From IMG/VR virus record IMGVR_UViG_3300020179_000132, positions 1 through 28,570 of that record: a DNA stretch of 28,570 bases; one strand, 5' to 3'. The stretch is from a virus. Under the pieces are notes generated by a model. The model searched no databases, was not told the origin of the DNA, and was given only the letters and a program-made list of their open reading frames with translations. Within the stretch, counting starts at the first letter, position 1. Every line of letters starts with the position of its first letter. Below, piece after piece: positions 271 through 28,570 of this stretch. The translations under genes and the position numbers were made by a program.

Positions 271-1494
271 ATGGCCAAAATTCTTTATTGCGGCGACGCT
301 TTTGTCGAAACTGGTTTTGGGCGCGTTGCTGAAAACCTGCTTCCCGCTTTGGCGAGGGATCATGAAGTTAGTGTACTGGCGGTAAATTACCACGGTGATC
401 CTGACTCAGAGGCCAGGAAATATGATGTTTATCCGGCCATGCTGCATGGCTCCGATCCATTTGGCTCACATCGAATTGGCGAACTTGTTCAAAAAATCAA
501 GCCCGATTTGGTATGGGTGACAAATGATATCTGGATTGGGATTAGTTTATGGAAGGCCGTTAAGGCATTTAAACAAAGCATTGGTTTTAAATATTTTGTT
601 TATACTCCCATTGACAGTTATGGGCTATTTTCCGAGCTTTTGGAACCCATCAATGAATGGGATGGCGTTGCCACTTATACAAAATTTGGAGCGGCTGAAA
701 TTGAAAAAATTGGCTACGAAAAAGAAATTGCCATCATGGGACATGGCACTGATTTTTCTAAATTTTTTCCAATGGACAAAGAGGAATGTCGAGAAAAGCT
801 GGGTGTGCCAAAGGACAAATTTATTGTTTTCAATGGCAATAGAAATCAACCGCGCAAGCGAATTGATTTGACAATTAAGGCTTTTATTAAGTTTGCAAAA
901 GACAAAGACGACGCACGATTGTGGCTCAATATGGGCAGTAAAGATATGGGGTGGGATATTGTGCCGTTATTTAAGCGCGTGGCTCGCGATGAAGGATATG
1001 ATCCCACTGGCAAACTTATTCTCACCAGCCCTCACTTTTCCACGGCAAACTGTTTAAGCATTGAACAACTTAACATGGTTTACAACGCCTCCGATATTGG
1101 TATTAACACTTGCATTGGAGAGGGCTGGGGGCTGGTTAATACTGAACATGCTGCCACTGGCGTGGCTCAATTGGTGCCCGATCATACGAGCCTGGCCGAA
1201 ATTTTTGACGAACTGCCACGGATTTTATGTAATGCTGCAGAGACTGATAGGAACTATGGTTTGGAACGATTGCTTCCCGACCCGGATTCTGCCGCCGAAT
1301 TGCTTTCTTATTATTATGATTTCCGAGATTCATTGAAAAAAGACGGTCAGTGGTGTTACAACCGTATTCGCGAAGAAGCTTTTACTTGGCCCCATATCAC
1401 AAAGCAAATGTTAGAAATTGTCGGAAAAACATTAGCGGCAAAACCGGCAGAGCCTGAATTTAAGGGCTTTGGCACTCCTGCAAAAATTAATTAA
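271..1494 (+). CDS. GT4-like (GT-B fold) glycosyltransferase
   Basis: A 407-residue protein with GT-B glycosyltransferase architecture, expected to move a sugar from a nucleotide-sugar donor in the cytoplasm. The N-terminal half starts MAKILYCGDAFVETGFGRVA, with the Gly-rich acceptor-side loop (GFG, residues 15-17). The C-terminal half has a basic segment (NGNRNQPRKRIDLTIKAF, near residue 190) and the EX7E-type motif GEGWGLVNTE, Glu284 to Glu292, which binds the donor in GT4 enzymes. The ATG at 271 is the only usual start after an in-frame stop at 247-249; no clear Shine-Dalgarno is seen. It heads a cassette with two further carbohydrate-related genes and a methyltransferase, suggesting joint synthesis of one glycan. 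Donor and acceptor cannot be read from the sequence. Confidence 0.85.
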   Translation: MAKILYCGDAFVETGFGRVAENLLPALARDHEVSVLAVNYHGDPDSEARKYDVYPAMLHGSDPFGSHRIGELVQKIKPDLVWVTNDIWIGISLWKAVKAFKQSIGFKYFVYTPIDSYGLFSELLEPINEWDGVATYTKFGAAEIEKIGYEKEIAIMGHGTDFSKFFPMDKEECREKLGVPKDKFIVFNGNRNQPRKRIDLTIKAFIKFAKDKDDARLWLNMGSKDMGWDIVPLFKRVARDEGYDPTGKLILTSPHFSTANCLSIEQLNMVYNASDIGINTCIGEGWGLVNTEHAATGVAQLVPDHTSLAEIFDELPRILCNAAETDRNYGLERLLPDPDSAAELLSYYYDFRDSLKKDGQWCYNRIREEAFTWPHITKQMLEIVGKTLAAKPAEPEFKGFGTPAKIN

Positions 1495-1498
1495 AGTT

Positions 1499-2215
1499 AT
1501 GCAAATTTCGCAAATCTTTTTGACTACCAATACGGAAGAAAAGCTTAGTCCTTTTCTTAAATATGCCACTGGCACCATTGACAATGTGTTTCCAAATGCG
1601 GAGCATATCATTTATAACAATGAAAGTCTTCGTGCCTTTATTGAGCAGCATTATGACAAGGAAGTGGTGTGGGCTTATGATAGTTTGAAGCCATTTTCTT
1701 ACAAAGCTGATCTTGGTCGCTTTTGCTTGCTAAATATTTTTGGCGGATGGTATTTTGATATTGCAGTGAGAGCTGTTAATCCCGTTGAAGTGGGAGAGCG
1801 CATCAAATTCTTAGCCTTTCGCGATATTCAACGGTTTAGTTATACAAGTTGGGCTTGTGCTACTACTGTCCTCTATTCAAAGCCTGACAACAAAGGATTG
1901 CAAATTGCCATTGAAAAGATTGTGGCAAATTGTAAAAATAAATATTATGGCATCACACCATTGTGCCCCACTGGTCCCACCTTGCTTGGCGAGGCACTGG
2001 CTGCTAATGGCAGCCAGGCCGATTTTGTGTATGGCGATTATTTAGAGCTAACACCTACGCATGAGCAAAAGAATAGAGCATTTGTATTGCCTGATGGCAC
2101 TATCATGGCATGGAGCAAACCTTCTGGCGGTGGCGATTTAACTGGCGTGGGAGCCAAGAGCGTTAATAATTACAATGAGCTGTGGGCCGCGAGGGATGTT
2201 TATGCAACCGTCTGA
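1499..2215 (+). CDS. GT32-like glycosyltransferase (sugar-binding DXD region family), altered DXD
   Basis: About 238 residues. The segment YKADLGRFCLLNIFGGWYFD matches the core of the Gly_transf_sug (DXD-containing, GT32-like) family, which typically reads KADLxRYxxLxxxGGxYxDxD. Here the metal-binding DXD is replaced by D-I-A (FDIAVRAVNP), so the second Asp is missing. I chose the ATG at 1499, four bases after the upstream stop, because MQISQIFLTTN is a typical N-terminus; an earlier in-frame ATG at 1469 would overlap the preceding gene by 26 nt. The gene sits between a GT4 enzyme and a DUF4422 protein and overlaps the latter, so they are probably co-translated. Fold assignment is fairly secure; activity is uncertain. 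Confidence 0.75.
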   Translation: MQISQIFLTTNTEEKLSPFLKYATGTIDNVFPNAEHIIYNNESLRAFIEQHYDKEVVWAYDSLKPFSYKADLGRFCLLNIFGGWYFDIAVRAVNPVEVGERIKFLAFRDIQRFSYTSWACATTVLYSKPDNKGLQIAIEKIVANCKNKYYGITPLCPTGPTLLGEALAANGSQADFVYGDYLELTPTHEQKNRAFVLPDGTIMAWSKPSGGGDLTGVGAKSVNNYNELWAARDVYATV

Positions 2216-2918
2216 TTGCACCATCTACGCCGTTTGCATTAACGACGAAAAAGTGCGCTACGAAGCCAAAAGTAACATTGTGCCCATTCTTGGTGGGGCA
2301 TGGGCTATCGCTGATGAGAAGCGCGATGCGCTTCGTAAAGAGGGCTATATGTTTGATGATGAGGGTGGTTATATGTCTGCATTAAACGAACGATGGGGAG
2401 AATTAAGCTGTGTGCAGTGGATGATGCTTAATGCAGAAGAAAAAAATATTGGCAATGCTCAGTACCGCCGAAATTGGATTGAACCTCGAAGTGAATGGTA
2501 TTTAGACGATACATTATACGTTCCAGAACCCGCCGTTTTTGCTTGTTCATTAGAGAAACAGTTTTATGGCGGTCATCGTGATTTTGATGCTCCTCTTATC
2601 ACTCGGGAGCTAGCGGATGGCGGACAGTGGCTATTCAATCGAGAGGAGATTGATGCCCTATGGGCACAAAATTTATTTATTGGCTGCAACATGGCGCGTG
2701 GTCCGAAGCGAGAATATAAAGAATTTATGACTGTTCTTTTTCATGCTCTTATTCCCATTTGGGAACAACATAAGAATCATTTTCTTTCCATTGAGGGATA
2801 TGACAGGAGGGCCATTGCTTTCATTGCCGAACGTATTATTACCGGCATTGTGTTGTATCGTGATAAGATTCTGCCTGGCGTAAAGATTGCCACGGCTCCC
2901 ATTGGGTATATTTCATAA
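2202..2918 (+). CDS. DUF4422-family protein, probable glycosyltransferase
   Basis: A 238-residue protein resembling the DUF4422 family, found in capsule and exopolysaccharide clusters and thought to include glycosyltransferases. The diagnostic parts are LNERWGELSCVQWMMLNAEE followed by IGNAQYRRNW (family: LNxxxCELTxxYWxWKN...YIGxxHYRR), and near the C-terminus RRAIAFIAERIITGIVL (family: GYLAERLLTxWL). Of three nearby in-frame ATGs (2175, 2196, 2202) I prefer 2202, because GAGGG at 2191-2195 stands 6 nt before it. The start lies inside the end of the preceding gene, a 14-nt overlap in another frame. It probably acts on the same glycan as its neighbours; the substrate is unknown. Confidence 0.7.
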   Translation: MQPSDCTIYAVCINDEKVRYEAKSNIVPILGGAWAIADEKRDALRKEGYMFDDEGGYMSALNERWGELSCVQWMMLNAEEKNIGNAQYRRNWIEPRSEWYLDDTLYVPEPAVFACSLEKQFYGGHRDFDAPLITRELADGGQWLFNREEIDALWAQNLFIGCNMARGPKREYKEFMTVLFHALIPIWEQHKNHFLSIEGYDRRAIAFIAERIITGIVLYRDKILPGVKIATAPIGYIS

Positions 2919-3460
2919 TGGCTCATCGCGAACAAGGCGAATACATCGCTTCCGTAAGGCAACGGTTTCCTGAATTTTTCAAGGGAGGGCGAGTCTTAGA
3001 AATTGGAAGCCTCAATATCAATGGAACAGTGCGACAATTCTTTGATGCCAATGAATATGTGGGAGTTGATGTTGGTGAAGGCCCCGGTGTCGATGTTGTA
3101 ATCAGCGGGCATGAATATAACAGTGAACAATTATTTGATTGTTGTATTTCATGTGAGTGCTTCGAACATAATCCATTTTGGGAGGAGACCTTCTTGAACA
3201 TGGTGAGGCTTTGTCGAAAGGACGGTCTTGTTGTATTTACTTGTGCCACCACTGGCAGACCGGAGCACGGCACCGAACGCACAACCCCGCAAGATAGCCC
3301 TTTAACCATTGCCAAGGGTTGGTCATACTATCGCAATCTGACGCAAGAAGATTTTCTCTCCGCCATTGATTTCAAAAAGTTTTTTAAGGAGATGCAATTT
3401 GCAACGAACAAGGAATCTTGTGATTTATATTTTGAGGGAATTAGGGCGGAACAGTATTGA
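2918..3460 (+). CDS. Class I SAM-dependent methyltransferase
   Basis: 180 residues with a Rossmann-type methyltransferase core. Motif I is VLEIGSLNINGTV (about residues 26-38), the acidic ribose-binding region is YVGVDVGEGPGVDVV, and a motif IV-like strand reads FDCCISCECFEHNP. It is followed by the segment GRPEHGTERTTP, seen in methyltransferases of glycan and phage clusters. The start codon overlaps the stop of the DUF4422 gene (TAATG), implying translational coupling. In this setting a sugar or glycan is the most likely methyl acceptor, but this is inferred from the neighbours; nothing in the sequence fixes the substrate. Confidence 0.8.
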   Translation: MAHREQGEYIASVRQRFPEFFKGGRVLEIGSLNINGTVRQFFDANEYVGVDVGEGPGVDVVISGHEYNSEQLFDCCISCECFEHNPFWEETFLNMVRLCRKDGLVVFTCATTGRPEHGTERTTPQDSPLTIAKGWSYYRNLTQEDFLSAIDFKKFFKEMQFATNKESCDLYFEGIRAEQY

Positions 3461-4763: not shown

Positions 4764-5957
4764 ATGAGCACCATCTCTTATCGGTACGATTTCTCGCCAA
4801 TTGAGAAATACGAAATGACGCCGGAAGGCTACCTTCGGGCGTGGGCTTCGATTGCTCGCACTGGCGTTCAGCTCTACACAGACGCTGATGGCTCAGTCCG
4901 TCGTGAATATCGTCCCGCTATTGAAGTGGCGTCTCCAGAAAGCTTGGCCTCATTTGCGGGCAAAGCTATCACTTCTGAACATCCCCCAGTTCTTCTTGAT
5001 GCTGAAAACACTAAAGACTACCAAGTAGGATTTAGCGGCACTGAAGTGGTTTACGACGATGGTTTCGTTAAAGCCGTGATGACAATTACGGACAAAGAAG
5101 CCATTGAACGTATTATGCGTGGTGATGCTCGTGAAGTGAGCGCGGGCTATCGGGTGAATTATGATCCCACGCCTGGCGTTACAGAAAACGGCGAACATTA
5201 CGATGGCATCCAAAAGGAAATCATCGGTAATCACATTGCCGTTGTTCGTCGGGGCCGCGCAGGCCCGCAAGTGAAGCTTCATCTTGATCGTCAAGATGCT
5301 GCTAATCCATCTCTACTCTCTATACACGGAGACCGTCCAATGACTGCCAAAGTCGTTTTCGATGGCGCCGAGTTTGAAGTGACGGAGAGCGTTGCTCTTG
5401 CGATCACCAAAGAACGCGAAGACGCCAAAATGTCCTATGAGGACATGAAGAAAAAATACGACGAGTTGCAGGCTGCTGCCGATGCCATGAAATCCGAAAT
5501 GGATGCCATGGAAAAGAAAATGAAGGGTAAGTGCGACGCTGCCGAAGGCCGCGCCGATGCCCTGGCAGAACAAGTTGAGGAATTGAAGGGCGATTTAGCT
5601 GCCGCCAAGGAAATCAATCTTGATTCCATGGTGGAAGAGCGTCTTTCCCTCATCGAAAAAGCCAAGCCTGTTCTCGATGCTGCTTACGATTTCAGCGGCA
5701 AAGAAGCTCGTGAAGTGATGGTTGATGCCATCCAAGCCGTTCGCGGCGACAGCATTGACCTGTCCGAAAAGTCTGATGACTACGTGCAGGCCATGTTTGA
5801 CACTCTGGAAGCGTCCCGTAAGGACTCTGCCACCACTGATGAGCTGCGTAAAGCCGTAGCTTCCATTGCTTCTCCCATGTCTGCTCCTTCGTCCTATATG
5901 GACAATCTGCAGAATGCCTGGAAAAAGCCCCTCTCCATCTCCAAAGAGGCTAAGTAA
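4764..5957 (+). CDS. DUF2213 prohead protease with C-terminal scaffold domain
   Basis: 397 residues. The N-terminal part matches DUF2213, the phage head-maturation protease family: TPEGYLRAWASIARTGVQLY (residues 19-38), EHPPVLLD with His73, and REVSAGYRV with Ser126. His and Ser are the likely catalytic pair of an S78/U35-like protease. GNHIAVVRRGRAG closes the protease fold. From about residue 215 the protein becomes a charged coiled coil (MSYEDMKKKYDELQ onwards), typical of a capsid scaffold. The start at 4764 gives the usual family N-terminus. It stands directly before cement and capsid genes. The protease would process capsid components inside the prohead; the scaffold part guides shell assembly and is normally removed. 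Confidence 0.85.
   Translation: MSTISYRYDFSPIEKYEMTPEGYLRAWASIARTGVQLYTDADGSVRREYRPAIEVASPESLASFAGKAITSEHPPVLLDAENTKDYQVGFSGTEVVYDDGFVKAVMTITDKEAIERIMRGDAREVSAGYRVNYDPTPGVTENGEHYDGIQKEIIGNHIAVVRRGRAGPQVKLHLDRQDAANPSLLSIHGDRPMTAKVVFDGAEFEVTESVALAITKEREDAKMSYEDMKKKYDELQAAADAMKSEMDAMEKKMKGKCDAAEGRADALAEQVEELKGDLAAAKEINLDSMVEERLSLIEKAKPVLDAAYDFSGKEAREVMVDAIQAVRGDSIDLSEKSDDYVQAMFDTLEASRKDSATTDELRKAVASIASPMSAPSSYMDNLQNAWKKPLSISKEAK
5328..5342 (+). promoter_or_regulatory. Internal ribosome-binding site for nested scaffold start
   Basis: GGAGA at 5328-5332 is followed after 7 nt by an in-frame ATG at 5340 inside the protease-scaffold gene. It is a better start signal than the one in front of the full-length ORF at 4764, which has no visible Shine-Dalgarno. 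Confidence 0.55.
5340..5957 (+). CDS. Predicted nested capsid scaffold protein (in-frame internal start)
   Basis: Starting at Met193 of the protease gene, this would make a 205-residue protein beginning MTAKVVFDGAEFEVTESVAL. It starts after the protease domain ends and a linker has passed (about residues 175-192), then covers the whole coiled-coil region with many Lys, Glu and Ala residues. The nested protease/scaffold layout is known from lambda C/Nu3 and related phages, where the smaller product is the scaffold. Support comes from the GGAGA box and from the domain boundary falling exactly at the start. It is not proof of expression. Confidence 0.55.
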   Translation: MTAKVVFDGAEFEVTESVALAITKEREDAKMSYEDMKKKYDELQAAADAMKSEMDAMEKKMKGKCDAAEGRADALAEQVEELKGDLAAAKEINLDSMVEERLSLIEKAKPVLDAAYDFSGKEAREVMVDAIQAVRGDSIDLSEKSDDYVQAMFDTLEASRKDSATTDELRKAVASIASPMSAPSSYMDNLQNAWKKPLSISKEAK

Positions 5958-11333: not shown

Positions 11334-14300
11334 ATGGCTCAAGACGCCGAACTTAAACTTAAGGTAAGTCTTGACCTAGGATTTTTTAGGCAGCAATTAG
11401 TAGGACTTGGGCAAGCAGCGGCGGGTTATAACATTCCCGTGCAAGTTAAGTTTGATCGACGTTCTGTTCAAAATGAACTTAATACGTTAGGGACAAATAT
11501 TAGGCGACGAAATTATGTTTTAGAAGTAAAAACTAATTTAAGCAAAGAAATTGATAACGCCAAGAAACTGGCGGACGCCCTTCGGGCGCTGGAAAGCGGT
11601 AAATCCACTGGAGGCACAGTTAAATCTGGCGGTACTTTTCGGCAACAACTTGAGAAAATAGATACTGCCACAATTAGAAATATTTATGCAGCGGCAGCGA
11701 AAGAGGGAATATTAGCGTTTAACGAAGAAACCAACAAGAGTAAATCAGCTTTAATTACAGCCTTAAACAAAGCAGCACAAGATGCTAGTCAAGGATTTCT
11801 TGATGCTTTTTCCGCTCAAAATTCTGCCGTTCATAAAGCAGCGGGCGATTATGGAGATGCATTATTAAATGGATTAAGAAAAAAATTGCGTAGTCAATCT
11901 CCTTCACGGGAGATGTTTGATATTGGCGAAGACGCAGGAAAAGGCTTTGAACTTGGCCTTTTAAAGTCAATGGAGCTAGCGGAACAATCCGCTACGCGCA
12001 AAATGCGCCGCATGTTAGATCGCCTTGCGCGTGTGGCTTTGATGGCTAGCGGCATGAGCGCCGCTGAAATCAATAGACAAGCTGGTCAATTTCAAGCAGG
12101 TCCAACCATTAATGCCCCTTCATGGGCTTCTACTGTTCCTCCCTCGCGAGGTGGAGGAGGAGGTGGTCGCCTGCTGCCTCCAGGGCCTACTTTTGCGGCC
12201 CTTGGCGGTACAGCTTTTGGTGCTCAAAAATATTTACCCACTGATTTAAGTGCTGAATTAAAGCAAATTTTACGTGGCGCAGCATTTGCTTTTGTAGATG
12301 CCATTCGCAGTGAAGCCAGGAAAACCAGTGTATTAAATCTTGGTCCTCAACAAAGAATGTTGGGCGGAACAAGAATTGCTGGTCTTCTTGAGGCGGGATC
12401 GCTAGGGAGATACTCAACTGGAAGAATCGGAGGGGAAACTCGCGAACAAATGTTTGCCCGTCGTACTCAGGAAGCATACACTCGTTCTGGACTGAGAAGC
12501 TTAGACATTATGGGGGGAGGCGAAGGTAGGCCCCCTTCGCCCTATAGCTATGCCTACAGAGGCGCTCGTCCACTTACGTCCATTGTTCCTTATCAGTCTC
12601 CAGGCGCACTTGTCGCAATGGGCGGGGGTGGCGGTGGCGGACAGCCGCCACAAGGCCCCACTGGTGGCGGTGGAGGTGGAGGTTTTGGTCAATTTGGTCG
12701 TGCAATGGGGCAAATCAATCTTCCTGGCGCAGGGACCATTCGCGAACTTGGCGCTGAATTCTCTTTCGCTGCTAAGCAGGTGCTTTTATTTGGCACTGCT
12801 TATAAAGCATTGGCGTTTATTCAGGCATTCCCTAGTCAAGTGGGACAAGCCGTTGGCCAGTTGCAAAGTTTTAGGAATACATTAAATACAATCTCCCCGT
12901 CCGCACAAGAAGCAGCAGCTTCAAATAAATTAATTCTTGATTTGGTTGACAAATATAATGTTCCCCTCCAATCGGCAAGGGATGGTTTTACAAAACTTTA
13001 TGCTTCGATGGCGCCCGCTGGTTTTAGCGGCAACGAAATTAGAGATTTGTTTACTGGCATTAGTAAAGCTGCTGCGACTTTTGGCATGAGCGCGGATAAA
13101 GTGGATCGCGTTAATTATGCCTTTGCTCAGATGGCAAGCAAGGGTCAAGTGATGAGCGAAGAGCTTAAAGGTCAATTGGGAGATGTGCTGCCAGGCGCTA
13201 TGGCAATTTTTGCTGAAGCGGCGGGATTTGAGGGACCAGATGCTATTCAAAAATTTAGCAAAGCTTTAGAAGATGGTGCTTATAAGGGCAAAGCGATGCG
13301 CGTTTTATTAAAAAACGTTGGCATTGAAATGAATAAGGAATTTGGACCAGGAGCGGAAGGAGCCGCAAAAACTTTCCAGGGTTTAATGAACCGAATGGCA
13401 AATTCAACACAAATGCTTTACGAAAGCTTTGAGCCAGTTGCCGTGGGGTTTTTGAATTCTGTTGTTGTTCCATTGACTTCTGGAATCAAACAAATTAGCG
13501 ATGGTTTTAATGCGTTTTTTACTGGAACAAAAGCCCAGACTGCGGGTGGATTTGCATTTGCAAAGGCATTAGAGGATTTGCGGCCTGCCTTTGATGGTAT
13601 TCGCAATAATTTGTCGAGCCTTGTTCCGCAACTAACTCAGTTTGGACAGATTGCATTAAATATCGCCAAAATTTTACTACAAATTGCTGGCAATCCAATT
13701 GTCGGTTATTTAGGAAAATTATATTTAGTGGCTTTGCCATTGAATATGTTATTTAATGGTCTATCTGGGATTATTGGCAGAGTCGTAATGGCAATGACCA
13801 CTTTAAACGTGGGCCTTCTTGCTGGCACTCAAAGGTTTACGACGTATCGGATTGCCATGCAAGCATTTGGTGTGTCTGCAGCGCAAGTTAGCACTACGTT
13901 AAGAACTTGGGCGCCAGCATTAAACGCCGCAACAATTGGACTAAGGGCTATCGCTGCTCCAGCAATATTGTTTGGTGTTTCGCTTTTGATAGAGAGATTC
14001 ATGATGCTTCAAGGAGCAATTAATGGAGTGGCTCAATCAACGCAAAGCATGCTGGGTAATATTTCTAGCTTGGCAAATTCTGGAGCCGTTAAAGATTTGA
14101 AGAATGTAGGCAAAGACATTCAAAATCAAATTAGCAGCTTTGAAAGCCTACGTCCTTTCCTCGGTAGTGGCGCCGCTGGATTGCCGCAACAAAAATTAAC
14201 AAAACAAGGAGCGGCCAAAATGAGAGAGCTGGGGCTCGGCTCTTTTGTTAGCACAGACGTACTTGGCGGTTTTTACGTTAATGATTTTATTAATGCCTCT

Positions 14301-16367
14301 AGGATTGTTGAAGAACGGCTTCGTGGACTGCGTAAGACGGCTGAAAGTGTTCGTGAAAAACTTCCCTTAGCAACGCGAATTCAGGAGGATATTAGTCAAC
14401 AAGTAACCCCTAAGCCAACAGCAATACCAGAAGAGGAAGACGATGGAACGGGCACCAAAAAATTAAGCGATTATTTATCGCAACGGTCCCAACTTTTGGA
14501 AAAGCTTGGTCAAATTGAAACCAACAGGATCAATCTTCTTGCCAATACCTCGCAAGAGGAGCGTGAGATATTACAGGCGCAACAAACATTTATCAACGAG
14601 AATCAAGTTAATGAGCGCAAATATTTAGAAGAACAAGCCAAGGCAAAAGATTATTCTGCCGCAACACGAGGAGCATATCTCGCGGAATTAAAGGCAAGTT
14701 ATCTTGCAGAGAAAAAGCTGATTGAACAACGCCGAGAATTGGCAATCAGGGGACCAATTATCAGGATGCAGGAGGAGTTAATCAACCAAAATTATGATCT
14801 TACGGCATCTTTAAACGCTTTAGAGCAAGGTCGAACTGAGCTTTCGGCTGTAGAAAAGGCCGCTTTAGAACTTGCCAAAAGAGCAAGTGAATTAAGCAAG
14901 CAGGGATTGACTATAACTGAAGAGGAAATTCAACTCACCTTAAATCTTGCTAAGGCGCAAGATATTTTGGCAAGCAAATATAAAACTAGACTGAGGCTTA
15001 AGAGTTTAAAAGACGAAATTGCATTATTGCGAGCGATTAACGATGAGGAGCGCAAACGTTTACAAATTCAACAGGAAAATCCGCAGGCGACAGAAGAGCA
15101 AAAAAATCAAATTTTTGATCTTGAAAAGATTCGCGACAATCTCAAACAAGCGAGGGAGCTAATTGATAATTTTGTTGATTCCACTTCATCGGACTATAAG
15201 GGCTTCTTAAAAGCAGTAATTAGCGGCGAAGACGCTGTTGATGCATTAGAAAAATTCCAAGAAGGTTTAAAAGATAGAGTTTTGACTATTTTCTTGGATT
15301 TTGCAATGAAGCCAGTAGAAGATTTCTTTAAGGACGTTGTTGGTGGCAAAATAATTGAAAAATTATTCCCTCGATCTGAAGCCGAAAAACAACCGCAAAA
15401 AGTGCAAACGCCAGTTGAACAAAAGCTAGATACAGCAAATGCTACGCTTAACAGAATTGAACAAAATACGCGGCCTGGCGCCGGTGCCGCCACTCAGGCT
15501 CTACCAGCCGGACTTAGTACTGCAGTAGGTTTTGGCGCGGGCTCTATTGATGATATTGGGTCAATGTATACAGGGGCTGGGTCTACAAATTTCCTTGCCA
15601 ATGCTGGAATTAACATGAGTGGAATGGATATGTCTCAAGGTTTTGGCCAAACAGTTAATGGATTTAGCTCTGCCTTTGAACAAATTAATGCAAATGGTGA
15701 AACTTTTGCAAACGGTCTTTTACAAACTGCAGAAAAAACTGGTGAGGCAGCAACAAATACACAAACTGCAGGTCTTGATTTTGTCGAAAAATTAGGCGGC
15801 GTAGTGCAAGGCATTGGCATGCTGGCTAGCGCGGCCATGGGCATTGTGGCCGGTATTAGACAAATTGAAAAAGGAGACACGGCAAGCGTAATTGGTGGTA
15901 TTGGTTCTATCTTGATGGGAGTGGGCGGCAGCATTCTTGGTTTTGGAAGATTATTTGGCGCCAATGGCGGCGTAGCCCAAGGTGGTTGGAAGCCATTCCC
16001 CATCACGCCATTTGCAACTGGGGGAACAGTTTCTGGCCCTACATTAGGTCTTGTTGGTGAAGGTAAGTACAACGAGGCCATTGTGCCCCTGCCTGACGGA
16101 AGGAGTATTCCCGTGCAAATGCAAGGCGATAGCGTAAGAGACAGAATGAATAATAGCAGCAATAGTGGTGCTGCATCGCCAGTGTTATCAATGAACTTTG
16201 AAACCACTACCATTAATAACGTGGAATATGTAAGTAGGGAGCAATTAGAGAGGGCTATGATGGAGACTAGAAGTCTTGCCACAAGAGATGGTGCACGGCA
16301 AGGGGCTAATTTGGCCATTGATAAACTTCAACAAAGTCCTAACACTCGTCGGAGAATTGGCATTTAA
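11334..16367 (+). CDS. Tape measure protein
   Basis: 1677 residues, the longest gene, directly after the chaperones. Residues about 470-690 contain the tape-measure N-terminal domain: KQVLLFGTAYKALAFIQAFP, then FTGISKAAATFGMSADKVDR and MSEELKGQLGDVLPGAMAIF. Two glycine tracts (near residues 275 and 430-455) look like flexible linkers. Hydrophobic segments near 775-830, 866-893 and 1493-1540 fit parts that enter the host envelope. Residues about 1040-1290 are strongly coiled-coil. The C-terminus has FATGGTVSGPTLGLVGEGKY and NEAIVPLPDGRSIPV, the usual tape-measure ending. It sets tail length and is ejected with the DNA. At about 0.15 nm per residue the tail would be near 250 nm. Confidence 0.93.
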   Translation: MAQDAELKLKVSLDLGFFRQQLVGLGQAAAGYNIPVQVKFDRRSVQNELNTLGTNIRRRNYVLEVKTNLSKEIDNAKKLADALRALESGKSTGGTVKSGGTFRQQLEKIDTATIRNIYAAAAKEGILAFNEETNKSKSALITALNKAAQDASQGFLDAFSAQNSAVHKAAGDYGDALLNGLRKKLRSQSPSREMFDIGEDAGKGFELGLLKSMELAEQSATRKMRRMLDRLARVALMASGMSAAEINRQAGQFQAGPTINAPSWASTVPPSRGGGGGGRLLPPGPTFAALGGTAFGAQKYLPTDLSAELKQILRGAAFAFVDAIRSEARKTSVLNLGPQQRMLGGTRIAGLLEAGSLGRYSTGRIGGETREQMFARRTQEAYTRSGLRSLDIMGGGEGRPPSPYSYAYRGARPLTSIVPYQSPGALVAMGGGGGGGQPPQGPTGGGGGGGFGQFGRAMGQINLPGAGTIRELGAEFSFAAKQVLLFGTAYKALAFIQAFPSQVGQAVGQLQSFRNTLNTISPSAQEAAASNKLILDLVDKYNVPLQSARDGFTKLYASMAPAGFSGNEIRDLFTGISKAAATFGMSADKVDRVNYAFAQMASKGQVMSEELKGQLGDVLPGAMAIFAEAAGFEGPDAIQKFSKALEDGAYKGKAMRVLLKNVGIEMNKEFGPGAEGAAKTFQGLMNRMANSTQMLYESFEPVAVGFLNSVVVPLTSGIKQISDGFNAFFTGTKAQTAGGFAFAKALEDLRPAFDGIRNNLSSLVPQLTQFGQIALNIAKILLQIAGNPIVGYLGKLYLVALPLNMLFNGLSGIIGRVVMAMTTLNVGLLAGTQRFTTYRIAMQAFGVSAAQVSTTLRTWAPALNAATIGLRAIAAPAILFGVSLLIERFMMLQGAINGVAQSTQSMLGNISSLANSGAVKDLKNVGKDIQNQISSFESLRPFLGSGAAGLPQQKLTKQGAAKMRELGLGSFVSTDVLGGFYVNDFINASRIVEERLRGLRKTAESVREKLPLATRIQEDISQQVTPKPTAIPEEEDDGTGTKKLSDYLSQRSQLLEKLGQIETNRINLLANTSQEEREILQAQQTFINENQVNERKYLEEQAKAKDYSAATRGAYLAELKASYLAEKKLIEQRRELAIRGPIIRMQEELINQNYDLTASLNALEQGRTELSAVEKAALELAKRASELSKQGLTITEEEIQLTLNLAKAQDILASKYKTRLRLKSLKDEIALLRAINDEERKRLQIQQENPQATEEQKNQIFDLEKIRDNLKQARELIDNFVDSTSSDYKGFLKAVISGEDAVDALEKFQEGLKDRVLTIFLDFAMKPVEDFFKDVVGGKIIEKLFPRSEAEKQPQKVQTPVEQKLDTANATLNRIEQNTRPGAGAATQALPAGLSTAVGFGAGSIDDIGSMYTGAGSTNFLANAGINMSGMDMSQGFGQTVNGFSSAFEQINANGETFANGLLQTAEKTGEAATNTQTAGLDFVEKLGGVVQGIGMLASAAMGIVAGIRQIEKGDTASVIGGIGSILMGVGGSILGFGRLFGANGGVAQGGWKPFPITPFATGGTVSGPTLGLVGEGKYNEAIVPLPDGRSIPVQMQGDSVRDRMNNSSNSGAASPVLSMNFETTTINNVEYVSREQLERAMMETRSLATRDGARQGANLAIDKLQQSPNTRRRIGI

Positions 16368-25142: not shown

Positions 25143-27815
25143 ATGGCTTCCATTCTTAAGCATCTTCGTTCGTCCACTGCTGACAAGCGCCCCACTGCAT
25201 CGGGCTTGGCTGATGGACAAATTGCAATTAATACGGCGTCAGGGACGCCTGCGATGTTCTTCAAGGACAATGCTGGAAACATTGTCAAAATTGGTCCTGC
25301 TCACATCGGCACCGCTGCTCCAAACGCAATCCCTGCTGGTAGTGCTGGCAATTCTGATGGCGAATTATGGATTGATGAAAGTCTGACCACTCGTGGATTG
25401 AAATATTACCGTGGCGCCACGTTTGTCAATTTAACACCTTCTGGCACCACTACTACTGTTGGTCTTGTCGAGCTTGCCACTGACGCAGAAACTCAAACTG
25501 GCACTGACAATGTAAGGGCAGTCACGCCTTCTGGCCTGCAAAGCAAAATTAGCGATAGCACGAGCACAACCAGTTCCACCACCATTGCATCTTCTACGGC
25601 TGTTAAGAGTGCTTATGACCTAGCCAATGCTGCACTTCCGAAAGCTGGCGGCACTCTTACTGGCGAACTCTTAATTAGTCCTAGCGGAAGTTTAGTTTTT
25701 GAAGGAAGTAGTGATGATGGTTTTGAAACAATTATTGCCGTTACCAATCCTACGGCAGATCGCACCATTACTTTTCCAAATGTAACTGGCAACGTTGTCA
25801 CGACTGGCGATAGCGGTACGGTCACCAGTACGATGATTCTTGATGGCACCATTCTTAACGCTGATATTAACGCGAGTGCTGCAATTGTCGATACAAAATT
25901 AGACACAATTGCCACTGCAGACAAGGTAAGTCTTTCCGCATTGAATATTGACGGGGGCACCGACATTGGTAGCGCCTTAGAAAATGGGGATTTATTTATT
26001 GTTGACGATGGAGCAGGGGGGACCAACAGGAAGGCTCAAGCTTTCCGCATGGCGCAACTTACCTATAGCGGTGTCACTGGGGATATTACAGTTGCCTCTG
26101 GCGGCACTGCTGCTATTTCCGCTGGCGTCATCGTTAATGCTGATGTCAACGCCTCTGCAGCCATCGCTGGCACCAAGATCAGCCCTGACTTCGGCAGTCA
26201 AAACGTCACCACCACTGGCACGGTTACGGGCGCCAGCTTGTCTCCGACCAGCAGCACGGTCCCGTCAAACGGGGTTTATCTACCTGCCGCAAACAGCGTA
26301 GCCATCAGCACTAACAGTGTTGAACGCCTCAAAATTGGCACTAGCGAGGTGGTGTTTAATGATGCAGGAAATGATATTGATTTCAGGGTTGAAGGTGATA
26401 CAAATGCAAACCTGCTATTTGTTGACGCCTCAACAGATCGAGTAGGCATAGGGACTAGTTCGCCTCAGAACCAACTGCATCTTGTCGGATCCGCCGCCAG
26501 CAACTACATCCGACTTGATAATAGTTCGGGTGCCAGAACGTATATAGCAACTGAAGCAGCAATTTCTGCAATTTATGCACAAAATAACGCTGGTGGAGAG
26601 TCACCGCTTCAACTTATAACTGGTGCAACGCCACGTATTCACATTGCTGCGGCAGGCAATGTAGGGATTGGCGTTACGAGCCCTGATGCGCTTGTTAGCT
26701 TAGGCAACACCGCTGACGCTAAAAAATTCCTTGTCTATCAAGACACAGGAAATAAAATTTATTACGGCTTTGGGATACAAGCCGGTGAGATGCGGACGTT
26801 TGCTGCATCAAATGGTGTACTAACTTTTGGTCAAATAAGTACATCAGACGGCACTACGTACACCGAACGCGCCCGCATCGATACATCGGGACGCCTGTTA
26901 GTTGGCACGTCTAGTGCGCGTAGCGGGTACGCAGGCGGAAATAACTTCACTCCTTATCTGCAAGTCGAAGGAAACAGTGACGGAACCAGGTTTTACAGTT
27001 TAACCAATAATTCAAATGCTAACGCTGTTTCTGCTCCAATCTTAAATCTTTCGAGAAGCCGCTCATCCAGTATTGGCGGCACCACAGTTGTCCAAAATGG
27101 TGATTGGCTTGGAACTATTTCATTCAATGGCTACGATGGGACTAATCCGGTCGAAGCCGTACAAATCAAAGCAGAAGTAGACGGCACCCCTGGCACCAAT
27201 GACATGCCAGGCCGCCTAGTGTTCTCGACTACTGCCGACGGGCAGAGTTCTCCGACGGAGCGGATGAGGATTACAAATCAAGGGATCCTGAACTTAAACG
27301 GTCAACGTTCAGGATTTGGCTTACCCATGAGTGGTAGCGGAAACGTGCGTGTTGCTGCTTCTTCTGCCGGAGGAATGTCCATTAGCACCTTCGATACTCT
27401 GGACTACACAGCAGTTCAGTTTGTCCGTGAAGTATCCGGCACTGCTATACAAGTAGGCACCATCACTTGCACATCCACTACTACGGCATACAACACCAGT
27501 TCTGACTATCGACTGAAAGAAAATGTTATTGCGCTTGATGATGCTGCAACCCGTCTCAAGCAGATCCCTGCCTACCGCTTCAACTTCATCGCTGAGCCGG
27601 ACAAGACTGTCGATGGCTTCTTGGCACATGAAGTGCAGGACGTTGTTCCTGAAGCAATCACCGGCGAGAAGGATGCAGTCGATGATGACGGCAACCCTAT
27701 CTACCAAGGCATCGACCAATCCAAGCTGGTGCCCCTGCTGACGGCTGCGCTCCAAGAAGCCATTGGTGAGATTGAATCACTGAAAGCTCGTGTTGCTGCC
27801 CTTGAAGCCCAGTAA
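25143..27815 (+). CDS. Tail fiber/spike with C-terminal peptidase S74 (intramolecular chaperone) domain
   Basis: 890 residues. The start MASILKHLRSSTADKRPTAS with LADGQIAINTASGTPAMFFK is the common fiber N-terminus that attaches to the tail. Residues about 150-350 carry shaft repeats, including the related units ILNADINASAAIVDTKL and VIVNADVNASAAIAGTKI. Residues about 425-700 resemble head-binding or adhesin modules with VGIGTSSPQNQLHLVG. PGRLVFSTTADGQSSPTERM precedes the S74 domain, whose core is SSDYRLKENV with Ser787, Asp788 and Lys792. It ends in a coiled-coil, KARVAALEAQ. S74 domains trimerise the fiber and are usually cut off by autocleavage at the Ser. The distal half has higher GC codons than the proximal half. 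Confidence 0.88.
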   Translation: MASILKHLRSSTADKRPTASGLADGQIAINTASGTPAMFFKDNAGNIVKIGPAHIGTAAPNAIPAGSAGNSDGELWIDESLTTRGLKYYRGATFVNLTPSGTTTTVGLVELATDAETQTGTDNVRAVTPSGLQSKISDSTSTTSSTTIASSTAVKSAYDLANAALPKAGGTLTGELLISPSGSLVFEGSSDDGFETIIAVTNPTADRTITFPNVTGNVVTTGDSGTVTSTMILDGTILNADINASAAIVDTKLDTIATADKVSLSALNIDGGTDIGSALENGDLFIVDDGAGGTNRKAQAFRMAQLTYSGVTGDITVASGGTAAISAGVIVNADVNASAAIAGTKISPDFGSQNVTTTGTVTGASLSPTSSTVPSNGVYLPAANSVAISTNSVERLKIGTSEVVFNDAGNDIDFRVEGDTNANLLFVDASTDRVGIGTSSPQNQLHLVGSAASNYIRLDNSSGARTYIATEAAISAIYAQNNAGGESPLQLITGATPRIHIAAAGNVGIGVTSPDALVSLGNTADAKKFLVYQDTGNKIYYGFGIQAGEMRTFAASNGVLTFGQISTSDGTTYTERARIDTSGRLLVGTSSARSGYAGGNNFTPYLQVEGNSDGTRFYSLTNNSNANAVSAPILNLSRSRSSSIGGTTVVQNGDWLGTISFNGYDGTNPVEAVQIKAEVDGTPGTNDMPGRLVFSTTADGQSSPTERMRITNQGILNLNGQRSGFGLPMSGSGNVRVAASSAGGMSISTFDTLDYTAVQFVREVSGTAIQVGTITCTSTTTAYNTSSDYRLKENVIALDDAATRLKQIPAYRFNFIAEPDKTVDGFLAHEVQDVVPEAITGEKDAVDDDGNPIYQGIDQSKLVPLLTAALQEAIGEIESLKARVAALEAQ
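27207..27272 (+). repeat. Outer inverted repeat, left copy (66 bp)
   Basis: Matches the reverse complement of 28501-28566 without gaps, 58 of 66 identical. The last 27 bp (27246-27272) are perfectly identical to the complement of 28501-28527. It encodes the segment just before the S74 tip. Confidence 0.85.
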
Positions 27816-27934
27816 TCCCCTTCGTTAGATACGTCATCTAAATCAAAGGGTTCTTCCATTGGATCGCCAACATCATCTTGATTGCTCAAGTCAAGACTGG
27901 CTTCGCAGTATTCTTCCCAGGCGGTGTCAGGCAT
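27701..27934 (-). CDS. Small acidic ORF downstream of the reverse fiber tip; probably chimeric or truncated
   Basis: 77 codons on the reverse strand, starting 14 nt after the stop of the reverse S74 gene. The first 39 residues (MPDTAWEEYCEASLDLSNQD, VGDPMEEPFDLDD) lie in the spacer between the two fiber tips and look like a real acidic protein. The remaining residues are simply the antisense of the forward fiber's C-terminus. The ORF therefore seems to have lost its own 3' end where the two arms meet. There is no Shine-Dalgarno. The function is unknown, and it could be a chance ORF. Confidence 0.35.
   Translation of the reverse strand: MPDTAWEEYCEASLDLSNQDDVGDPMEEPFDLDDVSNEGDYWASRAATRAFSDSISPMASWSAAVSRGTSLDWSMPW
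27792..27823 (+). repeat. Inner inverted repeat, left copy (32 bp)
   Basis: Matches the reverse complement of 27941-27972 at 28 of 32 positions without gaps. It covers the last codons, the stop and eight bases beyond (TCCCCTTC), so similarity extends past the coding end. Confidence 0.82.
27818..27850 (+). terminator. Candidate hairpin after fiber stop codon (weak terminator)
   Basis: TTAGAT (27825-27830) pairs with ATCTAA (27836-27841) and, across a small internal loop, CCCTT (27818-27822) pairs with AAGGG (27846-27850). TTCTTCC rather than a T-run follows, so intrinsic termination is doubtful. It lies between convergent genes. Confidence 0.3.
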
Positions 27935-27940
27935 AGTAGT

Positions 27941-27972
27941 GAAGGGGACTACGCGGCCTCAAGGGCAGCAAC
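27941..27972 (-). repeat. Inner inverted repeat, right copy (32 bp)
   Basis: Complement of 27792-27823 with four mismatches. It covers the end of the reverse S74 gene and the eight bases after its stop codon (TAG at 27949-27951). Confidence 0.82.
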
Positions 27973-28570
27973 TTTGGCTTCAAGGGTTTCGATGCGCTCC
28001 ATCGCTTCCTGCAGCGCCTTGACTGCCTTCATATAAAGCACGGAATACTGGACCCCTTTTGTCGTTGTACCAAGGTCGTTGCCATCCTTATCACGATCTT
28101 GCGCTTCATAAACTAAGCCAGGGCTGATGGACTCAACCTCTTGGGCGATCACGCCAATTTGGCGATGGGTTGGATCTTTCTTGAAATTATAGTTACGAAC
28201 TTGAAGCGATTTAATGTCATCCCATTGCGAATTTGCATCGACAATGTTTTCTTTCAGTTTGATGTCAGAAAGGGAGCCATAACTATTGTTAGTGTTTTGG
28301 GCATTGCCGTTGCCAATGATTTTAAATCTTTCAGAACCAAAATTGCCTGACCAGCATTGTAAAAAACTAAATCCTGTGCCTGCTGCTGTGTAATTATTTA
28401 TATTGAATTGATTAGATACATATGATGTGCTTGTTGCATTAATCAACAAATTACCTTGGTTATGAGCCGGTACTGTTGTAGTAATAAAACCATCCTGAGC
28501 AATCCTCATCCGCTCCGTCGGAGAACTCGACCCATCTGGCGTAGTCGAGAACACTAGACGGCCAGGGGTA
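27949..28570 (-). CDS. Second S74 tail fiber tip on the reverse strand (partial, 5' end outside window)
   Basis: The reverse frame is open from the right edge and gives about 206 residues ending AALEAA. It opens with TPGRLVFSTTPDGSSSPTER, nearly the same as the forward fiber. It then has a different middle (LINATSTSYVSNQFNINNYT, CWSGNFGSERFKIIGNG) and an S74 core SLSDIKLKENI, followed by RQIGVIAQEVESISPGLVYE and a terminal coiled coil. No start is required inside the window: GTG 28554 is only a possible start, and similarity runs upstream of it. The gene converges on the forward fiber gene. It is either the tip of a full second fiber or a spare tip for the forward shaft. Confidence 0.82.
   Translation of the reverse strand, partial: TPGRLVFSTTPDGSSSPTERMRIAQDGFITTTVPAHNQGNLLINATSTSYVSNQFNINNYTAAGTGFSFLQCWSGNFGSERFKIIGNGNAQNTNNSYGSLSDIKLKENIVDANSQWDDIKSLQVRNYNFKKDPTHRQIGVIAQEVESISPGLVYEAQDRDKDGNDLGTTTKGVQYSVLYMKAVKALQEAMERIETLEAKVAALEAA
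28501..28566 (-). repeat. Outer inverted repeat, right copy (66 bp)
   Basis: Complement of 27207-27272, 58 of 66 identical, with a perfect 27-bp core at 28501-28527. The window ends four bases later, so the repeat may extend further right. Confidence 0.85.

Follow-up and report, generated by a model that had tools for sequence, protein, structure and literature searches.

The DNA analysed here, which we call the window, is the whole of a public viral contig, a linear fragment of 28,570 bp. In its head genes, it is similar to the cyanosiphovirus S-CBS4: the major head protein is 86% identical to the homologue of Synechococcus phage S-CBS4, and the gene order glycosyltransferase, methyltransferase, protease, head protein also resembles S-CBS4. 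The source phage is most probably a cyanosiphovirus, with the host group read from the S-CBS4-like head protein; a search for an isolate with closely related tail genes found none. The right-hand end of the window holds two fibre genes arranged tail to tail, with the following features.

25143 to 27815, plus strand: forward tail fibre gene, 890 aa (open reading frame, Pfam S74 and PHROG tail fibre matches)
27207 to 27272, plus strand: forward arm of the outer repeat, the hinge GRLVFSTTADGQSSPTERMRI, read as the 5′ seam of a tip cassette from the hinge-family comparison
27792 to 27823, plus strand: forward arm of the inner repeat, coil end, stop and TCCCCTTC, read as the 3′ seam, truncated after TCCCCTTC
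27812 to 27934, minus strand: small ORF MPDTAWEEYCEASLDLSNQDDVGDP..., first ~41 codons, truncated at the junction with the forward gene and lying on the downstream side of the reverse gene
27816 to 27833, no strand assigned: tail-to-tail junction of TCCCCTTC with GTTAGATACG, common only to one other locus, L168, among 367 loci
27941 to 27972, minus strand: reverse arm of the inner repeat, coil end, stop and GTCCCCTTC, leading into the start of the small ORF
27949 to 28569, minus strand: reverse fibre (tip R and S74), C-terminal 206 aa only, open at the contig end (open reading frame, Pfam, PHROG)
28501 to 28566, minus strand: reverse arm of the outer repeat, the hinge GRLVFSTTPDGSSSPTERMRI (hinge-family comparison)

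The forward fibre consists of a shaft up to around position 27206, the hinge, a tip (tip F) whose receptor-facing segment spans roughly 27273–27498, an S74 chaperone and a coiled-coil end. Peptidase_S74 (PF13884) matched both tips above its curated cut-off, at residues 787–839 in the forward (E 8e-8) and 101–153 in the reverse (E 2e-12), which bears out the original prediction of two convergent S74 fibre tips on opposite strands. Tips F and R are only ~30% identical. The outer arms form an inverted repeat of 66 nt with 58 identical positions (88%), including 27 bp of perfect identity, and the inner repeat has a 28/32 core at each stop codon within wider arms (27747–27823 and 27941–28017) that are 71% identical; the stretches from outer to inner repeat measure 519 and 528 bp. 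The repeat matches and spacings had been claimed beforehand, and their coordinates held to the base. The two outer arms share one codon phase, and when 27207–28566 was inverted in silico, the forward fibre stayed open, at 893 aa, and had tip R as its end, in agreement with the earlier claim that recombination at the outer repeats would join the reverse tip in frame to the forward shaft. Convergent tips and in-frame arms would also suit programmed inversion, with a site-specific recombinase encoded outside the contig flipping 27207–28566 and switching the forward fibre between F and R, like Mu Gin or Rin.

The outer repeat, however, encodes a hinge that also occurs in phages with no second tip. 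Its motif, GRLVFSTTxDGxSSPTERMRI, is present in ~100 fibres of unrelated phages whose shafts and tips differ, and it precedes several non-S74 tips as well as S74 tips, including the tip of the cultured Synechococcus phage S-LBS1 (hinge, non-S74 tip, TAGTAGTCCCCTTCAC). We compared 70 distinct 60-nt DNA versions of the hinge, which gave 1,919 pairs whose flanking sequences are unrelated on either side; 22% of these pairs were at least as alike as the arms of the window (53/60), and median pair identity was 82% across the motif versus 42% and 33% for the flanking sequences. In the marine podovirus 7B11-B, the hinge agrees with arm A of the window at 57/63 and with arm B at 56/63, where arm A matches arm B at 56/63, and a strict DNA pattern for the hinge matched 14 contigs with differing shafts and tips. 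For the same residue, the codon was identical at a frequency of 0.60 in the hinge versus 0.42 in the S74 domains of divergent pairs, a comparison set not matched for age, and 0.32 expected from codon usage, an excess that is an indication of conservation at the DNA level. The repeats of the window are far beyond chance as DNA, yet, judged on these comparisons, within the likeness of any two hinge-bearing fibres of the phage group, and they are most readily interpreted as population-wide seams rather than private recombination sites.

In this phage group, (A)GTCCCCTTCACT(A/T)C(T/C)ATG often comes after the stop codon of a fibre gene, and its ATG starts one of several small genes. The GTCCCCTTCACT boundary was seen after S74, SYRL and VLMAC tips, that is, after S74 and at least two other classes, and the genes downstream of it differ. 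In the window, the boundary of the reverse gene is intact and runs into the small ORF MPDTAWEEYCEASLDLSNQ..., and the forward gene meets the opposite end of this ORF in a tail-to-tail join. The inner repeat reaches exactly 8 bp past the stops because the forward gene keeps only TCCCCTTC before the join. The inner repeat itself is the usual 3′ boundary of these fibres, a stop followed by GTCCCCTTCACT.

The junction string occurs in no fetched locus besides the window and L168, which belongs to a phage whose tail is lambda-type (J protein, PHROG 31) and unrelated to that of the window. When proteins of L168 and the window were compared, the fibre was the sole match. The forward fibre of L168 ends in the reverse tip R of the window (97.6% identity across 578 bp), the match breaking off within the hinge on one side and within the coil on the other; L168 also shares the tail-to-tail junction, likewise oriented (87% across 214 bp). 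As R occupies the forward slot in L168, tips must move between slots. The minus strand of L168 carries a third tip, the outer arm of which is 100% identical to window positions 27196–27272 over 77 bp; we rejected this match as proof of exchange within a genome because the hinge and part of its upstream sequence are widely shared. A comparison with related phages for flipped arrangements had been suggested, and L168 provides one in part: R stands in the forward slot beside the same junction, but the small ORF lying between the two tips keeps its orientation, and the coil end of tip R differs. Such a slot change would not result from one simple inversion at the outer repeats, a point against programmed inversion in spite of R lying in the forward slot of L168; it fits either exchange at hinge and coil or two successive inversions.

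It is most improbable that the arrangement is an assembly chimera of two phages, merged by the assembler at the hinge or the common 3′ boundary. In favour of such an artefact, both seams recur in numerous phages from the same samples, and fibre genes are a frequent place for contigs to end; but the junction was also recovered in L168, in an independent assembly from a different sample and at 87% identity, and therefore does not stem from the same molecule.

In three further pairs, near-identical tips that begin to match at the hinge sit on unrelated shafts: L217/L228 (98.9%), L010/L026 (98.5%) and L216/L217 (95.8%). At identities above 95%, these tip exchanges are probably recent. The pair L293/L294 was rejected as a case of tip exchange, as L293 has just 76 bp of shaft. 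These exchanges, together with the presence of the same junction in L168 with R in the other slot, argue against two independent convergent fibre genes shaped only by ancient domain shuffling, with nothing exchanged between the slots. The low identity of F and R would suit such independence, as would the fact that several cyanophages have more than one S74 fibre and the layout of another locus, L260, where two complete fibres with different N-termini converge and the reverse fibre (394 aa) has its own start. On balance, we regard independent genes as unlikely.

Related tips in bacterial genomes were seen in one contig, in a Planctomycetota MAG.

Only two contigs have tip R or the junction at all, and each of them has both; this hints at a travelling unit whose tips trade places inside one genome, contrary to exchange between phages. 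Inversion within a genome is possible, and it would not have to be programmed: the inverted seams could recombine by homology, through an annealing protein or host RecA, so that the population always holds both arrangements and the layout is kept as a store of spare tips. Arms with 27 bp of perfect identity would suit this process, phage annealing proteins tolerate diverged homology (PMC3945230), and S-LBS1 has an annotated annealing protein. R changes slot between the window and L168 while the junction stays, and a double inversion, at the outer and then at the inner repeats, gives exactly the L168 arrangement with the small ORF unflipped. Against this, a search of IMG/VR for the same shaft with another tip found no pair; the convergent layout occurs in only 3 of 235 S74-bearing loci, where a useful switch should not be rare; and L168 has a third tip, so that exchange with other phages is needed anyway. 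We therefore consider unprogrammed switching unlikely as the main explanation. The missing pair with one shaft and different tips also counts against exchange between phages, as does tip F, for which the search for a close relative elsewhere returned a best match of 63%, so that the exchange history of F itself is not visible.

The ends of the two contigs bear on the same question. The window stops 4 bp past its right outer arm (28501–28566), and the window and L168 contigs both stop within 4–11 bp beyond their right outer arms. An assembly stop at this position is expected for a segment present in both orientations, which favours programmed inversion and weighs against the exchange reading. 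However, contigs of this phage group often break in the fibre anyway: an R-type tip is present in 80 contigs, of which 11 stop less than 1 kb upstream of the hinge and another 18 over the following 5 kb, and many contigs related through the tail module end inside the fibre. The break at the right arm of the window is therefore weak evidence for a switch.

Neither Phage_integrase (PF00589) nor Resolvase (PF00239) was found when the window, L168, L260 and two long related contigs (54 and 47 kb) were searched; for the window, this agrees with the earlier statement that no recombinase is present there. When both outer arms were searched for a dyad crossover site, none scored above shuffled sequences. 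A tyrosine recombinase does lie downstream of the fibre in seven loci that bear the small ORF or a related fibre (L251, L256, L259, L265, L267, L268 and L028), and its nearest isolate homologue is the integrase of S-LBS1 (61%), which adjoins the S-LBS1 fibre gene. This neighbourhood would favour programmed inversion, for which a tyrosine invertase that shuffles receptor-binding C-termini offers a precedent (PMC6109161). Four of these relatives (L251, L028, L256 and L265), however, have one tip at most, and only short, weak inverted repeats, none of them long, were found around it. Given these observations, the arms without a dyad and the unflipped small ORF, we judge programmed inversion quite unlikely. 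Of the Mu-G-like invertible switch originally proposed, the convergent C-termini and in-frame arms stand; the arms proved to be common to unrelated phages and to lack a dyad core, and a dedicated switch of this kind is not supported.

The authors of the S-LBS1 study propose lysogeny for this phage, although integration in the host was not found (PMC6157547). It is conceivable, but very doubtful, that an S-LBS1-type tyrosine recombinase, perhaps encoded beyond 28570 in the present phage, acts at the hinge or the GTCCCCTTCACT boundary as a tip recombinase rather than (only) as an integrase. If so, cyanophages would have a tip switch driven by a tyrosine recombinase, and this switch would also acquire tips from other phages.

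Together, these observations lead us to favour, with a probability of roughly 60%, a reading in which the window carries two tip cassettes, placed tail to tail, and homologous recombination at a pair of conserved seams exchanges them. Each cassette would run from the coding hinge (the outer repeat) to the 3′ boundary at the stop (the inner repeat), both conserved as DNA, and would contain a receptor-facing segment of ~75 residues followed by the S74 folding chaperone. The nested inverted repeats would then be the two seams of two cassettes in opposite orientation. The exchange partners would be phages infecting the same cell, or the two slots of one genome, and the process would be ordinary homologous recombination, probably phage-type single-strand annealing; a dedicated invertase would not be needed, and the reverse slot may hold a second fibre or a reserve tip. 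In place of a private switch, aquatic phages of different tail types appear to have a common receptor-tip plug, DNA-conserved at both ends, by which a tip with its chaperone could pass from one phage to an unrelated one, and even from strand to strand within a genome. If this is true, the seams could serve as search keys for exchangeable tips in metagenomes and show which phages use the same tip pool, and they may also explain the frequent contig breaks inside the fibre gene in this phage group.

Several known systems resemble this arrangement in part. The Mu G/Gin and P1 C/Cin segments, inverted by serine invertases, likewise have alternative C-termini that converge, are flanked by inverted repeats and can be read in frame with an unchanging shaft. 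They differ in that the repeats of the window are 66-bp coding seams common to unrelated phages, without a dyad crossover site, and in that no serine recombinase was found in the window, which ends at the repeat. The Rin shufflon of Bifidobacterium prophages also places variable receptor-binding C-termini behind a constant shaft, and relatives of the window have a tyrosine recombinase near the fibre; Rin, however, has a row of tip genes, each with an 11-bp site, and an invertase alongside (PMC6109161), whereas the window has long seams and no recombinase. Tyrosine-recombinase shufflons such as Rin and R64 Rci have three or more tip segments with sites, whereas no locus here has more than two tips. 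Because we found neither private dyad sites nor three or more tips, we did not place the window in the Mu-G or shufflon families. As fibres with an intramolecular chaperone, both tips of the window carry the C-terminal PF13884 domain of Peptidase_S74 fibres. Work on fibre-domain mosaicism and host-recognition modules has described fibre parts and chaperones common to different phage families (PMC10579305, PMC10684548), as here; the exchange unit in the window differs in being sub-genic, with defined 5′ and 3′ DNA seams. The boundary (linker) sequences of mosaic phages, at which Rad52-like relaxed recombination acts, are alike in their short conserved border homology between unrelated flanks (PMC3945230), and the features of linker recombination found here are conserved border DNA, unrelated flanks and near-identical modules in unrelated genomes. 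In contrast to those linkers, one seam of the window lies inside coding sequence and is conserved at synonymous sites, and the cassette, a tip with its chaperone, is present in both orientations in one genome. On the best reading, the locus works like phage module-border exchange, applied to fibre tips inside a gene.

Small open reading frames 3′ of the fibres carry a module of around 60 bp, W(E/D)EYCEASLDLSNQDD(V/I)GE, that is conserved at the DNA level, with copies in the window and in comparison loci:

27812-27934 (-), window: small frame between the convergent fibre tips
L251, L267, L272, L273 and L275: further copies

The frames that carry it otherwise differ, and the module is initial in some and central or terminal in others; one of these frames contains DUF433, and the L249 copy is interrupted by an in-frame stop. 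The module may represent a portable peptide or a DNA element.

Several phages carrying this module or a related fibre encode, 3′ of the fibre, a tyrosine recombinase of the type found in the cultured Synechococcus phage S-LBS1, in some cases close to a DUF7936-like protein:

L251, 3451-4332: tyrosine recombinase
L256, 8751-9641: tyrosine recombinase
L259, 281-1135: tyrosine recombinase
L267, 615-1466: tyrosine recombinase
L028, 10179-11030: tyrosine recombinase

The L311 fibre contains two hinges (the conserved coding motif at the 5′ seam of the tip cassette), at 5697 and 6018, and because the sequences 3′ of them share a perfect 279-bp overlap, the hinge unit appears to have been tandemly duplicated. 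A tip resembling that of the window's reverse-strand fibre (58%; L355, 1306-1887) was found within a Planctomycetota metagenome bin, possibly as a misbinned phage contig.

Contigs L088 and L089 diverge from the window within the tape-measure gene (12314-16003 compared), having no nucleotide match to around 13.2-16.0 kb despite 99.3-99.6% identity in the tail genes, which points to recent internal recombination. Positions 271-3460 of the window, upstream of the head genes, contain additional genes besides one for a glycosyltransferase (PHROG 2170), in a layout similar to that of S-CBS4 (glycosyltransferase, galactosyl transferase and methyltransferase).
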